Assembly (NCBI RefSeq): GCF_014697195.1
Contig: NZ_JACJRJ010000054.1
Span: 1-37,022 of the forward strand
DNA: 37,022 nt
Reading direction: 5' to 3'
From: Cylindrospermum sp. FACHB-282
GTDB taxonomy: Bacteria > Cyanobacteriota > Cyanobacteriia > Cyanobacteriales > Nostocaceae
The notes beneath the pieces were generated by a model. It did not search any database and was not told where the DNA came from. It was given only the letters and a program-made list of their open reading frames with translations. The translations under genes were made by a program, and so were the position numbers. This document shows, one piece after another, positions 15,037-20,927 of this stretch; positions within the stretch are counted from its first letter, which is position 1, and the number at the start of each line of letters is the position of its first letter.

Positions 15037-15783
15037 TACTATTTCAGTACAGTTGCAAAAAATAGAAATACTTGCTTATATCTGCATATGTAACATCAAT
15101 TTACTGGTTATAATTAGCAATCAGCAGGAATAAATTCTAGCTTCGGGCCAAATAGACCAATGGCAAAAGTAACTTAAACAGTGCTGTTAAACAAATAACA
15201 ACGTATTAGGCTAAGTACTTAATTGCATCTGCATTATTTTAGCCATCAGTGGCTAAAAGAGGAGGTTAAAAATCTAGTTTGCACCTATGGTAATGGGGAT
15301 CAGCAACTAACTGTGGCTGCGCTCCAATTTAAAGTAACCAAAGTTCTGATGTCTGACAACAAGCCGCAACCCTACCCTTCCACTTTCTCGAATGGCAGGG
15401 CACAACTTGCCAGGAGTTACAAAAATCGGGAAGATTTCCTGTATAGGTCTGCCCTGAGATGCCAACAAAGTGTATCCTCATCATTGCTATGAAATAAAAA
15501 AAATCCGGACATAATGATGTACTTGTAGAAAGTATTACGATATGGCAGTTTTTGCCGATTATTGGGGTCAATTCTCTTCAAGACAATGTCTAGTTGAGAA
15601 ATCTGCCAGTCTCCTGCTGTGTTGGTATTTGTAACCAAACCTACCAACAATTATTGAGGAGCGTGATAGTTTCAGGTGATATCCCAAGACCTCCTTCATC
15701 CTCTGCTTCCAGTCTTACCTCTGGAATTGTGGCACATTAATTTTGGCTATTTATTCTGGGAATATGCTTTGATTAACAGAAGC
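15037..15783. other. Long gene-poor region
   Basis: No convincing gene is visible in 747 bp. TTTTAGCCA (15237-15245) and TGGCTAAAA (15250-15258) form a perfect 9-bp hairpin with a TCAG loop, followed by GAGGAGG, which resembles a ribosome-binding site with no start codon at the right distance. A 47-residue frame from ATG 15349 to TGA 15492 (MSDNKPQPYPSTFSNGRAQL) is possible but has no family resemblance. The region may contain an untranslated RNA or the upstream part of the repeat element at 15784. Confidence 0.4.
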
Positions 15784-15992
15784 ATGAAAAGGCAGTCCGT
15801 AGGAGGGAAACTCCATAAATTCAGGGTTTTTAAACTTTTGAGGCCGAAAAGGAAGCGCTACGGCTCTCGAAATACATTTTTTTCGGCTTTTCATCAATAA
15901 ATTTACTCACTCTAAAAGAGAGTAGCAGAGGGCAAAAAATATATTTTCTTCCTTCTGCGGACTACCTCCTAGCCTCTGCCTTTCTTTGGTAA
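15784..15992 (+). ncRNA. Candidate structured RNA or non-autonomous element, copy 1
   Basis: This stretch aligns over about 195 bp with the reverse complement of 20358-20555, at roughly three-quarters identity by eye. Shared blocks include AGGAGGGAAAC, ATTCAGGGTTTT, CTACGG-TCTCG, ATCAATAAATTTACT and GCAGAGGG. Hairpin 1 pairs GCCGAAAA (15843-15850) with TTTTCGGC (15880-15887) and runs into TTTT. Hairpin 2 pairs GCAGAGG (15925-15931) with CCTCTGC (15973-15979) and runs into CTTTCTTT. Both look like intrinsic terminators. A small hairpin GGAG-GGAAA-CTCC lies near the 5' end. Whether it is an RNA gene, a leader of the TM2 gene 97 bp downstream, or a mobile repeat is open. Confidence 0.5.
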
Positions 15993-16088
15993 AAATATAT
16001 TTAGCAACTAAATATATTTGCTGATTTTATTACTAGAATAAAGACCTTAATTTTATACTTCATAACTATACAAGGAGCAGCACTTAAT

Positions 16089-16364
16089 ATGGCGAATATT
16101 AACCCCTCTCACGCTACTAAACAACTTCTAGCTGGTTATTGTGGCATTATTTTTGGTGGTTTTGGGGTGCACAAATTTATTCTCGGTTACACCTCAGAAG
16201 GTTTTATCATGCTATCGATTTCCATAGTTGGGGGTACTTTCACCTATGGCGTTAGCTTGCTGGTTATGCAACTGGTAGGTTTGATTGAAGGCATGATTTA
16301 CTTGAACAAGAACCATGAAGAATTTGTTGATACCTACTTTGTGAATAAACAGGGATGGTTTTAG
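16089..16364 (+). CDS. TM2 domain membrane protein, 91 aa
   Basis: The protein is a single TM2 domain: two membrane helices (AGYCGIIFGGFGVHKFILGY and the second at about 50-72) connected by the GFGVHKFILGYTSEGF turn that carries the characteristic G-x-H/D-K/R-F-Y/I-x-G-x-x-x-x-G motif. TM2 proteins are small inner-membrane proteins of unknown function in bacteria. The start has a good ribosome-binding site (AAGGAGCAG). No operon partner is evident; the 15784 repeat element lies directly upstream, so its leader may be partly repeat-derived. Confidence 0.88.
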   Translation: MANINPSHATKQLLAGYCGIIFGGFGVHKFILGYTSEGFIMLSISIVGGTFTYGVSLLVMQLVGLIEGMIYLNKNHEEFVDTYFVNKQGWF

Positions 16365-16680
16365 CAATTCTTATTTGGGGCTAAATATTCTAAATATATA
16401 GTTGCAACGGCTATTCTTAAAGCTTGTTAGCCTGTCTACTGCAATATTTAAATCATCAAAAATATCCTAGCTGCCTGACTATGACACAATCTTGACCATA
16501 ATAGGAATTACGCACACTCTACGAATTCTTGGCGAACAGGGGCGTCTTAGCGGTTAGATAAATTAAGGTTTTTGGCGATTTTTGCCTAAGTCCTGCATAA
16601 CTCCCGGTTGCTAGGCTTATTTATGAATTGGTGAAAATTCAGAAAACTATTTTTGATGAAAAACTCTAATTTAGACTGCC
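16365..16680. other. Intergenic region between TM2 gene and small membrane ORF
   Basis: This 316-bp AT-rich stretch has no coding frame of note, no clear terminator and no recognised repeat. It presumably holds the promoter for the small ORF at 16681. Confidence 0.4.
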
Positions 16681-16860
16681 ATGTTAACTATGAAACGTAA
16701 ACAACTGACCTGGGGCCTCTTTGTGTTAATGGGCTTTGGGTATTTCAGTGCTATGTCTAATTTAGAAATACACTATATTTTGAAAAGCATGATTGCTATC
16801 ATGCCAATCCAGGGGTTAGCTCTGATTTATGTGACTTATATAAATTGGCGCCGTCGATAA
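16681..16860 (+). CDS. Very small membrane protein, 59 aa
   Basis: The frame ATG 16681 to TAA 16858-16860 encodes a basic start (MLTMKRKQ), two hydrophobic segments (WGLFVLMGFGYFSAM and about 34-52, IAIMPIQGLALIYVTYI) and a basic end (NWRRR). This positive-inside hairpin topology is typical of genuine small membrane proteins. A second in-frame ATG at 16690 (MKRKQ) is equally possible. It lies 115 bp upstream of the copper ATPase on the same strand. No family recognised. Confidence 0.5.
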   Translation: MLTMKRKQLTWGLFVLMGFGYFSAMSNLEIHYILKSMIAIMPIQGLALIYVTYINWRRR

Positions 16861-16975
16861 CTTAATAAACTTAATATAATTTACATTTAGTCATAGCTGC
16901 GAATTTCGCCTACGCTCGAAGTAGAGACACTTTTTGTCGGGCGTTAAATTTTTCTAGCGAACCTAAACACTTGCC

Positions 16976-19600
16976 ATGCAACTTGTCCCAAAAACTAAGC
17001 TTGCCCCAGAATCTGCCCCGATCACAGAAAAAATTATTCTAGATGTTGGGGGCATGAAGTGTGCTGGGTGCGTGACGGCAGTAGAACGACAGCTAACCCA
17101 ATATCCAGGAGTCAAGAGTGCCTGTGTGAACCTCGTAACAGAGGTAGCGGTGGTGGAATTGGAAGATGGCGCAGTAGATGCAGATGCACTCTCCAAGCAA
17201 TTGACAACAGCGGGTTTCCCAACTCAACCCCGGAAATCTGCTAACAAAGTAGCAGGGGAGACATCCGCCCTAGAAGACCCAGCAGCACGAGGACGCCGAG
17301 AAACCTTGGCGGCAATTAGGCAATTGGTGATTGCTGGGGTATTGCTGGGGTTATCGGGAATTGGACATTTTGGTAACATGGGTAGCTCCGTGTTACCGAT
17401 ACTGAATAATATCTGGTTCCACTGTGGACTGGCAACTGTGGCGCTGCTATTTCCCGGTCGCCCGATTTTAGTAGATGGCTTTAGGGGCTGGCGGCGGAAT
17501 ATGCCCAATATGAATACCCTGGTGGGCTTGGGAACCCTGACAGCCTATACTGCTAGTTTGGTGGCGCTGTTGTTTCCCCGAATGGGTTGGGACTGCTTTT
17601 TTGACGAACCAGTAATGATGCTGGGTTTTATTCTTTTAGGACGGACATTAGAACAACAAGCCAGAGGTCGCGCCGCCACCGCATTTAGACAATTGCTGGC
17701 ACTCCAGCCACAGGTAGCACGATTGATTGTCAACCCAGACGCCGAGAAAATAGGCGCAGGGGCAACTATCGTCGAGGTTCCCGCGGAGCAGGTGCGTGTT
17801 GGTGAATGGTTACAGGTGCTCCCAGGAGATAAAATACCCGTTGATGGTGAAGTTCGTTTTGGGCAAACAACGGTTGATGAATCGATGTTGACTGGGGAAT
17901 CTGTACCAGCAATTAAGCACCCAGGAGATATAGTGACAGCGGGAACCCTCAACCAGTCGGGTGCGATCGCTATTCAGGCAACACGTACCGGAGATGAGAC
18001 AACTCTGGCGCAAATTGTCGCTTTGGTAGAAGCTGCCCAAACCCGTAAAGCCCCGGTACAAAAATTAGTAGATATAGTAGCTGGTTACTTTACTTATGGT
18101 GTGTTAACGGCTGCTTTATTAACATTTGCTTTTTGGTATTTTTTCGGCGTCCATCACTGGCCTAATCTCACCATGTCAGGTGGTATGGAAATGATGGGAC
18201 ACTCATATCTCCCCACTCAGCACTCCCCACTACTAGTTAGCTTAAAATTAGCGATCGCAGTCATGGTAGTCGCTTGTCCCTGTGCTTTAGGACTTGCCAC
18301 CCCAACGGCTATTCTTGTAGGAACTGGTATGGGTGCAGAACGCGGTTTGCTAATCAAAGGCGGCGACGTCTTGGAAAGAGTACACCAGCTAGACACTATA
18401 GTTTTTGATAAAACCGGCACTCTTACCACAGGTAATCCCACAGTTACAGATTGCCTGGTATTTGAGGGACTTTTGACTGAGGACAAGGAGCATAATCGGG
18501 AAATTCTCCCTAGTCTTCTCCCAATCCCTAATTCCCAATCCCTTCTCCAACTAGCAGCAGCGGTAGAAAGCGGCACTTATCATCCATTAGCAAAAGCGAT
18601 TAGAGCCGAAGCGCAACGGCAAAAGTTATCAATCCCCGATGCTGTGGACTTTCACACCGAACCAGGACTAGGGGTATCTGCTGTTGTAGAAGGCATAAGT
18701 ATCCTGTTAGGGAACTGGGACTGGCTGAGTTGGCACGGAGTTGCTATTAGTGAAACTGGACAACAGGAAGCTCAGAGATTGGCAGCAGAAGGTAAAACAG
18801 TCGTTTATGTGGCAGTTGGCGGGACTTTAGCCGGATTAATTGCCATTTTTGATACCCTGAGACCAGATGCTCAAGCAGCTGTAAATCAGTTGCAGCAGAT
18901 GGGTTTGCGGGTAATGCTGCTGAGTGGCGATAGATTAGAAGCAGCTAGTGCGATCGCTAAACAACTGGGACTAGATAGCGCCGATGTTATGGCTGGTGTC
19001 CCCCCAGCAAAAAAAGCTAGTGCCATTCAAGCTCTTCAGGCTGGGGAGATGGGGAGAATACCCAATCCCAAATCCCAAATCCGTCTGGGAAAGTTTACTT
19101 CCCTGGGCAACCCTCCTGACACGCAAGTTCCGACAACGGGGCAGCAGTCCGCACAACAGGAAGAAAATACCCAAGGGGCTGCCTTGGGAAAAAATCCAAG
19201 GGGCTGGCTTAACTTTGGGCAAAATCCACAATCCGTTGTCGCCATGGTAGGAGATGGGATCAATGATGCTCCAGCTTTATCCCAAGCAGATGTCGGAATT
19301 GCTTTACACTCTGGGACGGATGTGGCAATGGAAACCGCAGAAATTATCCTGATGCGGGATCGCTTAAGTGACGTTGTCCAAGTAATTCAGCTTAGTGGTG
19401 CTACATTCAACAAAATTCGCCAGAATTTATTTTGGGCTTTTGCATATAATACAATTGGTATTCCCCTAGCAGCCGGTATATTTTTACCCAGTCTAGGTTT
19501 TGTTCTTAGTCCATCTAGTGCTGCTGCATTAATGGCTTTTAGCTCGGTTAGTGTCGTTACCAACTCAGTTTTATTACGGCGGTTTGTTTATCGCCCATAA
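16976..19600 (+). CDS. Copper-translocating P1B-type ATPase (CopA/CtaA/PacS group)
   Basis: The 874-aa pump has an N-terminal metal-binding domain with GGMKCAGC (C29, C32), a TGES actuator loop, the CPC transport motif at C434-P435-C436, phosphorylation site DKTGT at 478-482, HP motif (YHPLAKAI) near 543 and GDGINDAP at 759-766. The final helices carry YN and MAFSS motifs, which define Cu(I)-specific P1B-1 pumps. In cyanobacteria such pumps deliver copper to plastocyanin and cytochrome oxidase or export it. It is longer than the usual ~750 aa because of extra segments: about residues 691-753, between the KxxxIQALQ helix and GDGIND, a Met/His-rich loop before helix 6 and a short proline-rich stretch near 515. 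The first looks repeat-derived. Whether it is CtaA- or PacS-like cannot be decided here. Confidence 0.93.
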   Translation: MQLVPKTKLAPESAPITEKIILDVGGMKCAGCVTAVERQLTQYPGVKSACVNLVTEVAVVELEDGAVDADALSKQLTTAGFPTQPRKSANKVAGETSALEDPAARGRRETLAAIRQLVIAGVLLGLSGIGHFGNMGSSVLPILNNIWFHCGLATVALLFPGRPILVDGFRGWRRNMPNMNTLVGLGTLTAYTASLVALLFPRMGWDCFFDEPVMMLGFILLGRTLEQQARGRAATAFRQLLALQPQVARLIVNPDAEKIGAGATIVEVPAEQVRVGEWLQVLPGDKIPVDGEVRFGQTTVDESMLTGESVPAIKHPGDIVTAGTLNQSGAIAIQATRTGDETTLAQIVALVEAAQTRKAPVQKLVDIVAGYFTYGVLTAALLTFAFWYFFGVHHWPNLTMSGGMEMMGHSYLPTQHSPLLVSLKLAIAVMVVACPCALGLATPTAILVGTGMGAERGLLIKGGDVLERVHQLDTIVFDKTGTLTTGNPTVTDCLVFEGLLTEDKEHNREILPSLLPIPNSQSLLQLAAAVESGTYHPLAKAIRAEAQRQKLSIPDAVDFHTEPGLGVSAVVEGISILLGNWDWLSWHGVAISETGQQEAQRLAAEGKTVVYVAVGGTLAGLIAIFDTLRPDAQAAVNQLQQMGLRVMLLSGDRLEAASAIAKQLGLDSADVMAGVPPAKKASAIQALQAGEMGRIPNPKSQIRLGKFTSLGNPPDTQVPTTGQQSAQQEENTQGAALGKNPRGWLNFGQNPQSVVAMVGDGINDAPALSQADVGIALHSGTDVAMETAEIILMRDRLSDVVQVIQLSGATFNKIRQNLFWAFAYNTIGIPLAAGIFLPSLGFVLSPSSAAALMAFSSVSVVTNSVLLRRFVYRP
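19046..19234 (+). repeat. Repeat-derived in-frame insertion in the copper ATPase gene
   Basis: The segment begins with heptamer-like CCCAATCCCAAATCCCAAAT (19060-19079). It contains hairpins GGGAA-N7-TTCCC (about 19088-19104) and CCCAAGG (19170-19176) against CCTTGGG (19182-19188). It encodes a low-complexity Pro/Gln/Asn/Gly stretch of about 63 residues not expected in the P-domain of this family. Confidence 0.7.
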
Positions 19601-19630
19601 TATCCTCCATTGGAGGTAATATTTCCAGGC
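19601..19630 (+). terminator. Weak hairpin after the copper ATPase gene
   Basis: CCTCCA (19604-19609) pairs with TGGAGG (19611-19616) immediately after the stop codon; the following TAATATTTCC is only moderately T-rich. It may be a weak terminator or an mRNA-stabilising stem. Confidence 0.3.
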
Positions 19631-19821
19631 AAAAACCTAAGATTCCATATCAGGTTAAACTGAGTGATTAGTTAGGTGTTACCCATCTCACAAAATCTAT
19701 TTAGACTCCTCTCGGAGCAAAGATAACCACAAGAGTAGTACAACAATGTTCTACTCATGCCTTGGCAATATGCAATTTCAATGCTTATTCGATTCAGTAC
19801 CACAGATTTTAGTGCGCGAGA

Positions 19822-20322
19822 ATGGCAGGCAAAGAAACTCAAAAAATCTTAATTCATCAAAGTTCCCACAACCATAGTAACTATCTGTCAATGGCAGCAG
19901 ACAATGATGAGAACCACCTACTGATTATTGAAGATGATCAAGGTCGCAAAGAGTTTCCTCTGGAAAACTCCGTCTATTCTATTGGTAGAGACCGCGACTG
20001 TGACATCCGTTTGATGTCGCAGTTTGTCTCCCGTCGCCATGCCACATTAGTCAGATTGCCACGAAGGCATAATAGTCTTAGCTATTATTACCGGATTGTA
20101 GATGGCGATGCTAAAGGGCGGCCTAGTTCCAACGGTCTGATGATTAACGGACGCAAGATCCCAGCCTATGACCTGAAAAATGAAGACGAAATCGTTTTCG
20201 GCCCTCAGGTACGCGCTATTTATTACCTACTAAAAAATTCTCAGCGTGCAGGGCAAACTGATTCTAGTGAGTATGACATTACATTAATAAACCCTGGCAT
20301 GACTGAAGATATGGAGGACTGA
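19822..20322 (+). CDS. FHA domain protein, 166 aa
   Basis: A forkhead-associated domain spans about residues 32-140: LLIIEDDQGRKEFPL, then the core SIGRDRDCDIRL, FVSRRHATLVR with the phosphothreonine-binding S-R-R-H, and GRPSSNGLMINGRKI with the S-x-N-G signature. FHA domains bind phosphothreonine peptides and usually act in kinase signalling. There is no second domain; the C-terminal tail (YDITLINPGMTEDMED) is acidic and short. An alternative start at Met 31 (MAADNDENH) would give a minimal FHA protein. It is a lone gene followed by the repeat element at 20358. Confidence 0.9.
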   Translation: MAGKETQKILIHQSSHNHSNYLSMAADNDENHLLIIEDDQGRKEFPLENSVYSIGRDRDCDIRLMSQFVSRRHATLVRLPRRHNSLSYYYRIVDGDAKGRPSSNGLMINGRKIPAYDLKNEDEIVFGPQVRAIYYLLKNSQRAGQTDSSEYDITLINPGMTEDMED

Positions 20323-20357
20323 CAATATACCAATTTAGGTTTGTTTCGACTATCAAC

Positions 20358-20555
20358 TTACCAAAAAAGGTAGAGGGCAGAAGACAGAAAATAGATGTTT
20401 TACCCTCTGCCAAACTCTTTTAAAGCCAGTAAATTTATTGATAAAAAGCCGAAAATAGATATAATCCGAGACCCGTAGCCCTGGGGTTCGACATCAAAGG
20501 TTTGAAAACCCTGAATTTATTTATGGGGTTTCCCTCCTGCGGGCTGCCTTCTCAT
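20358..20555 (-). ncRNA. Candidate structured RNA or non-autonomous element, copy 2
   Basis: This is the inverted copy of 15784-15992. On the minus strand it starts at ATGAGAAGGCAGCCCGC and shares the blocks listed for copy 1. Hairpin 1 pairs GTCGAA (complement of 20487-20492) with TTCGGC (complement of 20448-20453), then TTTTT; relative to copy 1 a C-to-T change keeps a G-U pair. Hairpin 2 pairs GGCAGAGGG with CCCTCTACC (complements of 20403-20411 and 20369-20377), then a T-run. It lies 24 bp past the end of the minus-strand gene 20580-20927, so it could also act as that gene's terminator region. Confidence 0.5.
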
Positions 20556-20579
20556 AATAATCCCCCGACTTCAAGACAG

Positions 20580-20927
20580 CTATCCCGCAAAATTTTCAAT
20601 CAGATGCCAATGACGACTATGTTCAATGGCCTGCTTGATCAATTCAAACAGTTGTCGGCAGTGATTATCAAGCTGAAGTGGTAGTTCCTCGTTTTTAACT
20701 ACAATACTTATTCGGGTTTCTGTTGCGGTGGCTGTTGATTGATCAATCAAAACTTCCACGGCGACTAACTTAGAAAAGGAAACATTACCAGGAACCTCAC
20801 AAGCCATAATGTAGTCGGCTGTGTAGTATTGAACATCCAACTGACAGTCTTGTAGCAATTCTATAAGTAGTGGCTGAAGATGATCACTGGGGATAGAAAC
20901 AATAAATGAACAGGTATAGCGAGCCAT
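20580..20927 (-). CDS. Hypothetical protein, 115 aa
   Basis: I do not recognise a named family. The soluble protein alternates strands and helices: a strand (YTCSFIVSIP), helix (HLQPLLIELLQDCQL), strands (VQYYTADYIMACEVP, KLVAVEVLIDQS, TRISIVVKNEEL) and a final helix (NHCRQLFELIKQAIEHSRHW). This alpha/beta plan resembles small ferredoxin-like folds such as polyketide-cyclase/START-like or ACT-like domains, but no motif settles it. It is monocistronic and followed on its own strand by the repeat element. Confidence 0.65.
   Translation of the reverse strand: MARYTCSFIVSIPSDHLQPLLIELLQDCQLDVQYYTADYIMACEVPGNVSFSKLVAVEVLIDQSTATATETRISIVVKNEELPLQLDNHCRQLFELIKQAIEHSRHWHLIENFAG

Follow-up and report, generated by a model that had tools for sequence, protein, structure and literature searches.

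A probably mobile, dispersed palindromic element present twice in a contig of Cylindrospermum sp. FACHB-282

Two copies at one locus

The window, that is, the whole stretch of DNA that was analysed (37,022 nucleotides of contig NZ_JACJRJ010000054.1), carries two copies of one element. Copy 1 (205 bp) lies on the 5' side of a TM2-domain gene. Copy 2 (~194 bp) is flanked by an FHA gene and by a small convergent gene that has no Pfam match, and a heavy-metal-type E1-E2 ATPase gene sits between the two copies. The spacing of the TM2 and FHA genes (16089-20319 in the window) is 3-5 kb in many genomes of the family, which makes this region a useful frame for site comparison.

A preliminary description of this DNA had reported a full-length match of the two copies in opposite orientation. 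They do align end to end, at 15783-15992 (+) and 20358-20555 (-), with 79% identity over query bases 1-184 (BLAST, E=3.6e-39); the shared blocks quoted there are present in both (sequence, alignment), and its coordinates lie a few bases off the edges that the empty site sets for copy 1. It had also stated that neither copy encodes protein, and no ORF of at least 80 amino acids, the only size listed, overlaps either one.

Copy 1 is a 205 bp insert (15783-15987, +) delimited by an empty syntenic site in the genomes G001 (alignment) and G002 (locus L141, read by eye). At its 3' junction stands GGTAA (15988-15992, +; TTACC on the opposite strand), and AGTAA takes its place in G001 and G002, where the site is empty. 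The 5' outer arm, GGCAGTCCGTAGGAGG (15791-15806, +), contains GGCAG and TAGGAGG, which pair with parts of 15965-15983 in the predicted fold. It is followed by H1 with core motif unit 1, AAACTCC-ATAAATTCA-GGGTTT (15808-15829, +; sequence, alignment and family core), in which four bases of the family core are missing. The H2 hairpin, GCCGAAAA/TTTTCGGC (15843-15887, +), belongs to the predicted fold, and the inner hairpin at this position covaries in long members. Core motif unit 2 is CATCAATAAATTTACT (15892-15907, +; sequence, alignment), and the predicted fold places beyond it the H3 hairpin, GCAGAGGG...CCTTCTGC (15925-15958, +), and the 3' outer arm, CCTCCTAGCCTCTGCCTTT (15965-15983, +).

Copy 2 was recognized by its identity to copy 1 and occupies about 194 bp (20362-20555, -), with edges less sure than those of copy 1. 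TTAC stands at its junction (20358-20361, +) and in the same place in G001 (alignment). Its H1 with core motif unit 1 reads AAACCCC-ATAAATAAATTCA-GGGTTTT (20505-20532, -; sequence, alignment and core search), and its H3 hairpin, GGCAGAGGG/CCCTCTACC (20369-20411, -), is visible in the sequence and in the predicted fold of the opposite strand.

Two hairpins per copy had been proposed at the outset. In copy 1 the pairing GCCGAAAA/TTTTCGGC is predicted, whereas GCAGAGG pairs with the nearer CCTTCTGC, and CCTCTGCC with the 5' arm. In copy 2 GGCAGAGGG/CCCTCTACC forms a stem, but in the fold of the opposite strand, and GTCGAA/TTCGGC falls outside the minimum-energy fold.

Family, anatomy and gene context

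The family core, CATAAATAAATTYAGGG, has 69 exact matches in 18 of 40 genomes, and the reversed-letter control yields one. When up to 2 mismatches are allowed the control climbs (in G000, 19 vs 10), so that weak matches need one-by-one reading. A 20-base core occurs in at least 119 stretches in named genomes; 79 of the 80 matches listed are cyanobacterial, mostly from Nostoc and other Nostocales, and among the matches listed are also Symploca, Aphanothece, Plectonema and Limnofasciculus, which lie outside the Nostocales. The remaining one is a contig labelled as a Candidatus Dependentiae MAG (L353, JABDCP010000002.1), which may carry the core motif through mis-binning or transfer. As queries in their own genome, copy 1 finds 3 places and copy 2 finds 5; copy 2 also has matches elsewhere, in 17 of 60 genomes in all with its own counted. 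These counts are rough, and some of the matches are of arm sequence only. The further copies for which a search of the host and other genomes had been proposed therefore exist, as a dispersed intergenic family.

Long members begin with an outer arm and core unit 1 (H1), continue with a linker that bears the H2 hairpin and with core unit 2, and close with H3 and the second outer arm, which runs back along the first; H2 is lacking in the short ones (L023, L030, L200, L206). The measured unit length is about 190-242 bp, and less in short members. Two types of ends were distinguished: TTAAG or ATGAG ... TTTCTTCGGTMA with GGCAGAA- or GGGTGTAG-like arms, and GGTCAACCCC ... GCGACGGTCA with AATTAAAA-like arms. 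In the genome G009 a near-identical 3' part ending in TTTTTTCGGTAA or a close variant is found at 19 of 21 core sites, in flanks that are unique apart from sites cut by contig ends, and at 8 of the 20 loci tried that type of 3' part comes with the left end TTAAGAAGGG, exact or slightly varied. One locus (L346, 2411-2657) holds two exact core matches, inverted and ~230 bp apart. Elsewhere (L029, G000:C72) an H1-bearing member sits upstream of a reading frame that we take to be DnaK-like, slightly more than 100 bp from the start codon.

Gene context was assessed by crude longest-ORF calling, not annotation, for core hits with at most 2 mismatches. Six of the 145 hits with enough flank lie inside an ORF. 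Around the 139 intergenic hits the gene on the 5' side points toward the element in 69 cases and away from it in 70, and the neighbours are arranged ++ in 49, -- in 38, divergently in 32 and convergently in 20, the rarest setting.

These counts bear on the tandem terminator cassette that the preliminary description had also suggested, taken here as a set of intrinsic terminators that would guard gene ends. T-runs near the stems and the two convergent genes that flank copy 2 agree with such a function. A device of this kind is nevertheless highly improbable as an account of the family: gene orientation is unbiased, the convergent setting is the least common one, and no terminator-like site was predicted in either copy, 6 of these being predicted in 15700-20700 against a mean of 4.7 in shuffled sequences. 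The cassette reading is not supported.

Paired arms and stems

As inverted repeats, the outer arms take many unrelated sequences and are often arrays of heptamers; the classes include GGCAGAA, AATTAAA, AATTCAA, AGTCAAA, GATTTTA, ACTCAGA, AAAGTAA and GGGAACA. Single-sequence arms also occur, L054 having a 19-nt perfect non-heptamer arm pair. When arms were scored against their own partners, 44 of 229 core hits, a set that includes second core units and decayed copies, reached a score of at least 28, compared with a mean of 8.0 and a maximum of 13 in 20 shuffles; the permuted partners include elements of the same arm type, which makes this control conservative. No strong arm pair was present at the other 185 hits. 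The own pair ranked above all others in 9 of 119 cases and in the top 5% in 32 of 119.

The inner H2 stem covaries strongly. In 53 aligned long members, 311 of 371 cells are Watson-Crick pairs compared with 233 after permutation (sd 5.7, max 250, 1000 permutations), an excess inflated by the relatedness of the members; the alignment was obtained after dropping 13 of 71 segments for unit-2 mismatches and then 5 of 58 for length. Even so, the stem takes forms quite unlike one another, as in TATTTC/GAAATA, TGAAAC/GTTTCA and ATAAGCC/GGCTTAT. The outer pairs of H1 covary little, with 1 of 7 positions clearly above independence in a table that pools core units 1 and 2. A candidate pseudoknot, GGACGC/GCGTCT, crossing the H2 stem was rejected since it gave no covariation (179 vs 179.6 permuted). 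The H2 loop is forward in 32 of 58 segments, unassigned in 25 and inverted in one (L007); there, at ~1540-1590, it lies inverted between the stem arms, which fits recombination at nested palindromes.

Stem covariation had been named at the outset as support for an RNA gene. The stems do covary, through Watson-Crick changes that favour neither strand. A single G-U pair had likewise been taken as a hint of selection on RNA structure, a hint not borne out by the family: mismatches of the G.U type number 17 in the arms against 22 of the A.C type (p=0.52), and 10 against 11 in H2. Together this makes 27 vs 33, no G.U excess among what are only 60 mismatches. If one RNA strand were selected, G.U would be expected to outnumber A.C. 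The absence of such a surplus weakens the case for an oriented RNA gene, and less so the case for RNA effects of any kind, because the mismatches are few and a G.U bias could be masked if either strand were transcribed. Given this absence and the unbiased gene orientation, the structure seems to be kept on DNA, strand-symmetrically.

The competing explanation is a conserved small RNA gene or cis-acting structured RNA in the orientation of copy 1. The covarying stems agree with it, as does the predicted fold of copy 1, which beats shuffled sequences (z -4.1). The opposite strand of copy 1 also folds well, however (z -2.9), and copy 2 in the same orientation does not (z -0.34; z -1.8 on the opposite strand, neither being clear). 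Neither copy matches an Rfam family, and the sole Rfam match in 8 related loci is to IsrR, in L282. Of the 7 promoter-like sites in 15700-20700 (9.3 in shuffled sequences), the only one within a copy, at 20438-20465 (+) with 11 of 12 matches, is antisense to copy 2. With no surplus of G.U, no favoured gene orientation and copy 1 missing from two congeners, an RNA of either kind seems very unlikely.

Orthologous sites, mobility and relatives

Orthologous sites were sought for 19 copies: the 2 in the window, 7 in G000 and 10 in G001 or G002. Seven of these (copy 1, C50, C25, C30, L227, L193 and L220) proved empty or differently filled; apart from copy 2 and the unaligned sites listed below, the others lacked a flank. 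At the TM2 gene, compared through the plus-strand loci L131, L132 and L141, the sequence of G001 is CAGAAGAGTAAAAATA, and that of the window is CAGAAG, then the element, then GGTAAAAATA (alignment); G002 is also without copy 1, as read by eye in L141, the alignment there being ragged. The G001 sites of the own-genome copies C50 (with flanks that have diverged in part) and C25 contain no element, nor does the G002 site of L227, a G001 copy. That copy 1 was gained and not precisely lost would rest on the two congeners without it. Some members are old, since two appear to be common to G000 and G001 (L207/L228 and L204/L230).

The orthologous sites of C30, L193 and L220 are without the core, and in each case at least one of them has other heptamer arrays. 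In these comparisons (L224/L267, L193/L425/L428 and L220/L426/L427) several of the arrays have GTCA or GGTMA, and the arrays look as if they were landing sites or relics.

Outside the count of seven, the core was absent at up to 3 mismatches from nine unaligned regions, for C53, C72, C76, L200 and one flank of L227 in G000, and from L268. No core was found near the place of copy 2 in 18 other loci, up to 450 nt downstream of FHA with 3 mismatches allowed, a scan that misses copy 1 itself and is thus uninformative for the site of copy 1; in G001 the site of copy 2 holds a different sequence with no clean junction. For the G009 copies, one query against 30 genomes gave no usable orthologous site among the matches listed.

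Junctions show no duplication at copy 1 and C50, and GGT or GTCA on both sides at C25, C30 and L227. GTMA (TKAC on the opposite strand) is present at the junctions of copies 1 and 2, with related motifs elsewhere, and after 41 of 216 loosely matched arm ends the sequence reads GGTAA or GGTCA, by far the commonest words there. Insertion seems to follow TKAC on the strand opposite to the element, as judged from these junction sequences, without consistent duplication. A strict 3-bp TNA target duplication, as is typical of IS5/IS1031-like elements, was rejected because the left and right triplets often differ.

The copies might instead be inert remnants, slippage-born STRR heptamer arrays next to an old repeat, their pairing due to chance or to local inversion, in a unit that never transposed. 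Arm length does vary, most core hits are without a strong arm pair, and arrays without a core occupy the three orthologous sites described above. The core sequence is nonetheless conserved over many genomes, the 19 near-identical 3' parts in G009 end alike, and element-free orthologous sites exist for copy 1, C50, C25 and L227. We consider inert remnants unlikely.

Both copies are probably members of a non-autonomous, dispersed palindromic mobile DNA element, REPIN- or MITE-like, of Nostocales and some other filamentous cyanobacteria. The non-autonomous transposon that had been offered as one of three readings is supported by the many copies, their common ends and the element-free orthologous sites. 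What comparison of the sequences establishes is a conserved core, CATAAATAAATTYAGGG, present twice in long members with H2 between and framed by freely varying inverted-repeat arms, in a mostly intergenic family with no orientation bias and with presence/absence differences among congeneric genomes. The element may move as folded single-stranded or cruciform DNA, and, as a candidate route, an enzyme supplied in trans would join it next to GTMA (TKAC on the opposite strand). Complementarity of the arms could be maintained on DNA, for example if one arm were copied from the other with the hairpin as template, or if selection acted on the folded substrate; any influence on nearby genes would be incidental.

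Y1 transposases (PF01797) are encoded in all four genomes searched. A scan of 30 PF01797 loci in these 4 genomes, some with RAYT-sized genes, found no end of the AATTAAAA type. Core-like matches were limited to two with 3 mismatches (L401, L421) and none closer, and matches to the GGTMA end were scattered, with one exact, ~1 kb from the gene in L402; the latter look like chance. The loci scanned thus gave no convincing case of a Y1 transposase carrying the ends of this element.

IS200/IS605 elements (IS608) possess subterminal hairpins and asymmetric ends, and they insert without duplication on the 3' side of short targets, TTAC being one. The present element differs in having no transposase gene inside, and its ends match none of the Y1 loci scanned in 4 genomes. 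The very small mobile repeats of Nostoc genomes described by Elhai et al. in 2008 are reportedly about 21-27 bp long; the units here are larger, at the lengths given above for long and short members.

REPINs are REP doublets that form hairpins and are spread randomly in extragenic space, RAYT transposases being proposed to disseminate them, and Nostoc punctiforme is among the genomes considered in that account (PMC3116915). Like them, the present elements are short non-autonomous palindromes; the fold predicted for REPINs is one of single-stranded DNA or of mRNA (PMC3116915). The paired parts of REPINs as described there are conserved REP sequences, whereas here the arms are free and the core units conserved, and no RAYT association appeared in the limited scan of 30 PF01797 loci, in which RAYTs were not told apart. 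Cyanobacterial MITEs, among them Nezha (mentioned in PMC3733652 and PMC10969869), are likewise small and dispersed with inverted-repeat ends; the arms here are not a fixed terminal repeat and there is no consistent target duplication.

STRRs of filamentous cyanobacteria are usually 7-bp repeats capable of forming hairpins, with a function called not known in the source cited (PMC2670836), and their heptamers have been used as cyanobacterial fingerprints (PMC5088731). Unlike STRRs as described there (PMC2670836), two matching inverted arrays here frame a conserved core. In Xanthomonas, GGGAATC heptamers form 70 and 75 convergent close array pairs in two genomes, capable of stem-loop or cruciform formation (PMC4692102). 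The family shares with them two close heptamer arrays in convergent orientation; the Xanthomonas pairs are of one heptamer type, with no conserved core in the description drawn on here (PMC4692102). For the GGGGA(T/C)T heptamers of Nostoc PCC 7120 the same source reports only few inverted pairs (PMC4692102), which means that some heptamer arrays are not arms.

The four core strings were in no paper found, and the composite element in no title or abstract found; Elhai 2008, Mazel 1990 and Jackman and Mulligan 1995 may describe the family. Covariation alone, as this family cautions, is no proof of RNA. It is conceivable, although we would not yet favour it, that many STRR heptamer arrays of heterocystous cyanobacteria are arms or arm relics of a mobile palindrome whose enzyme reads the fold and the core, not the arm sequence. 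In the folded state one arm would be rewritten from the other, so that sequences of any kind would undergo concerted evolution and novel heptamer classes would emerge and spread. If many STRRs are such arms, their origin, pairing and spread become testable, and the family offers a natural case of DNA-level structure conserved despite wholesale sequence turnover.
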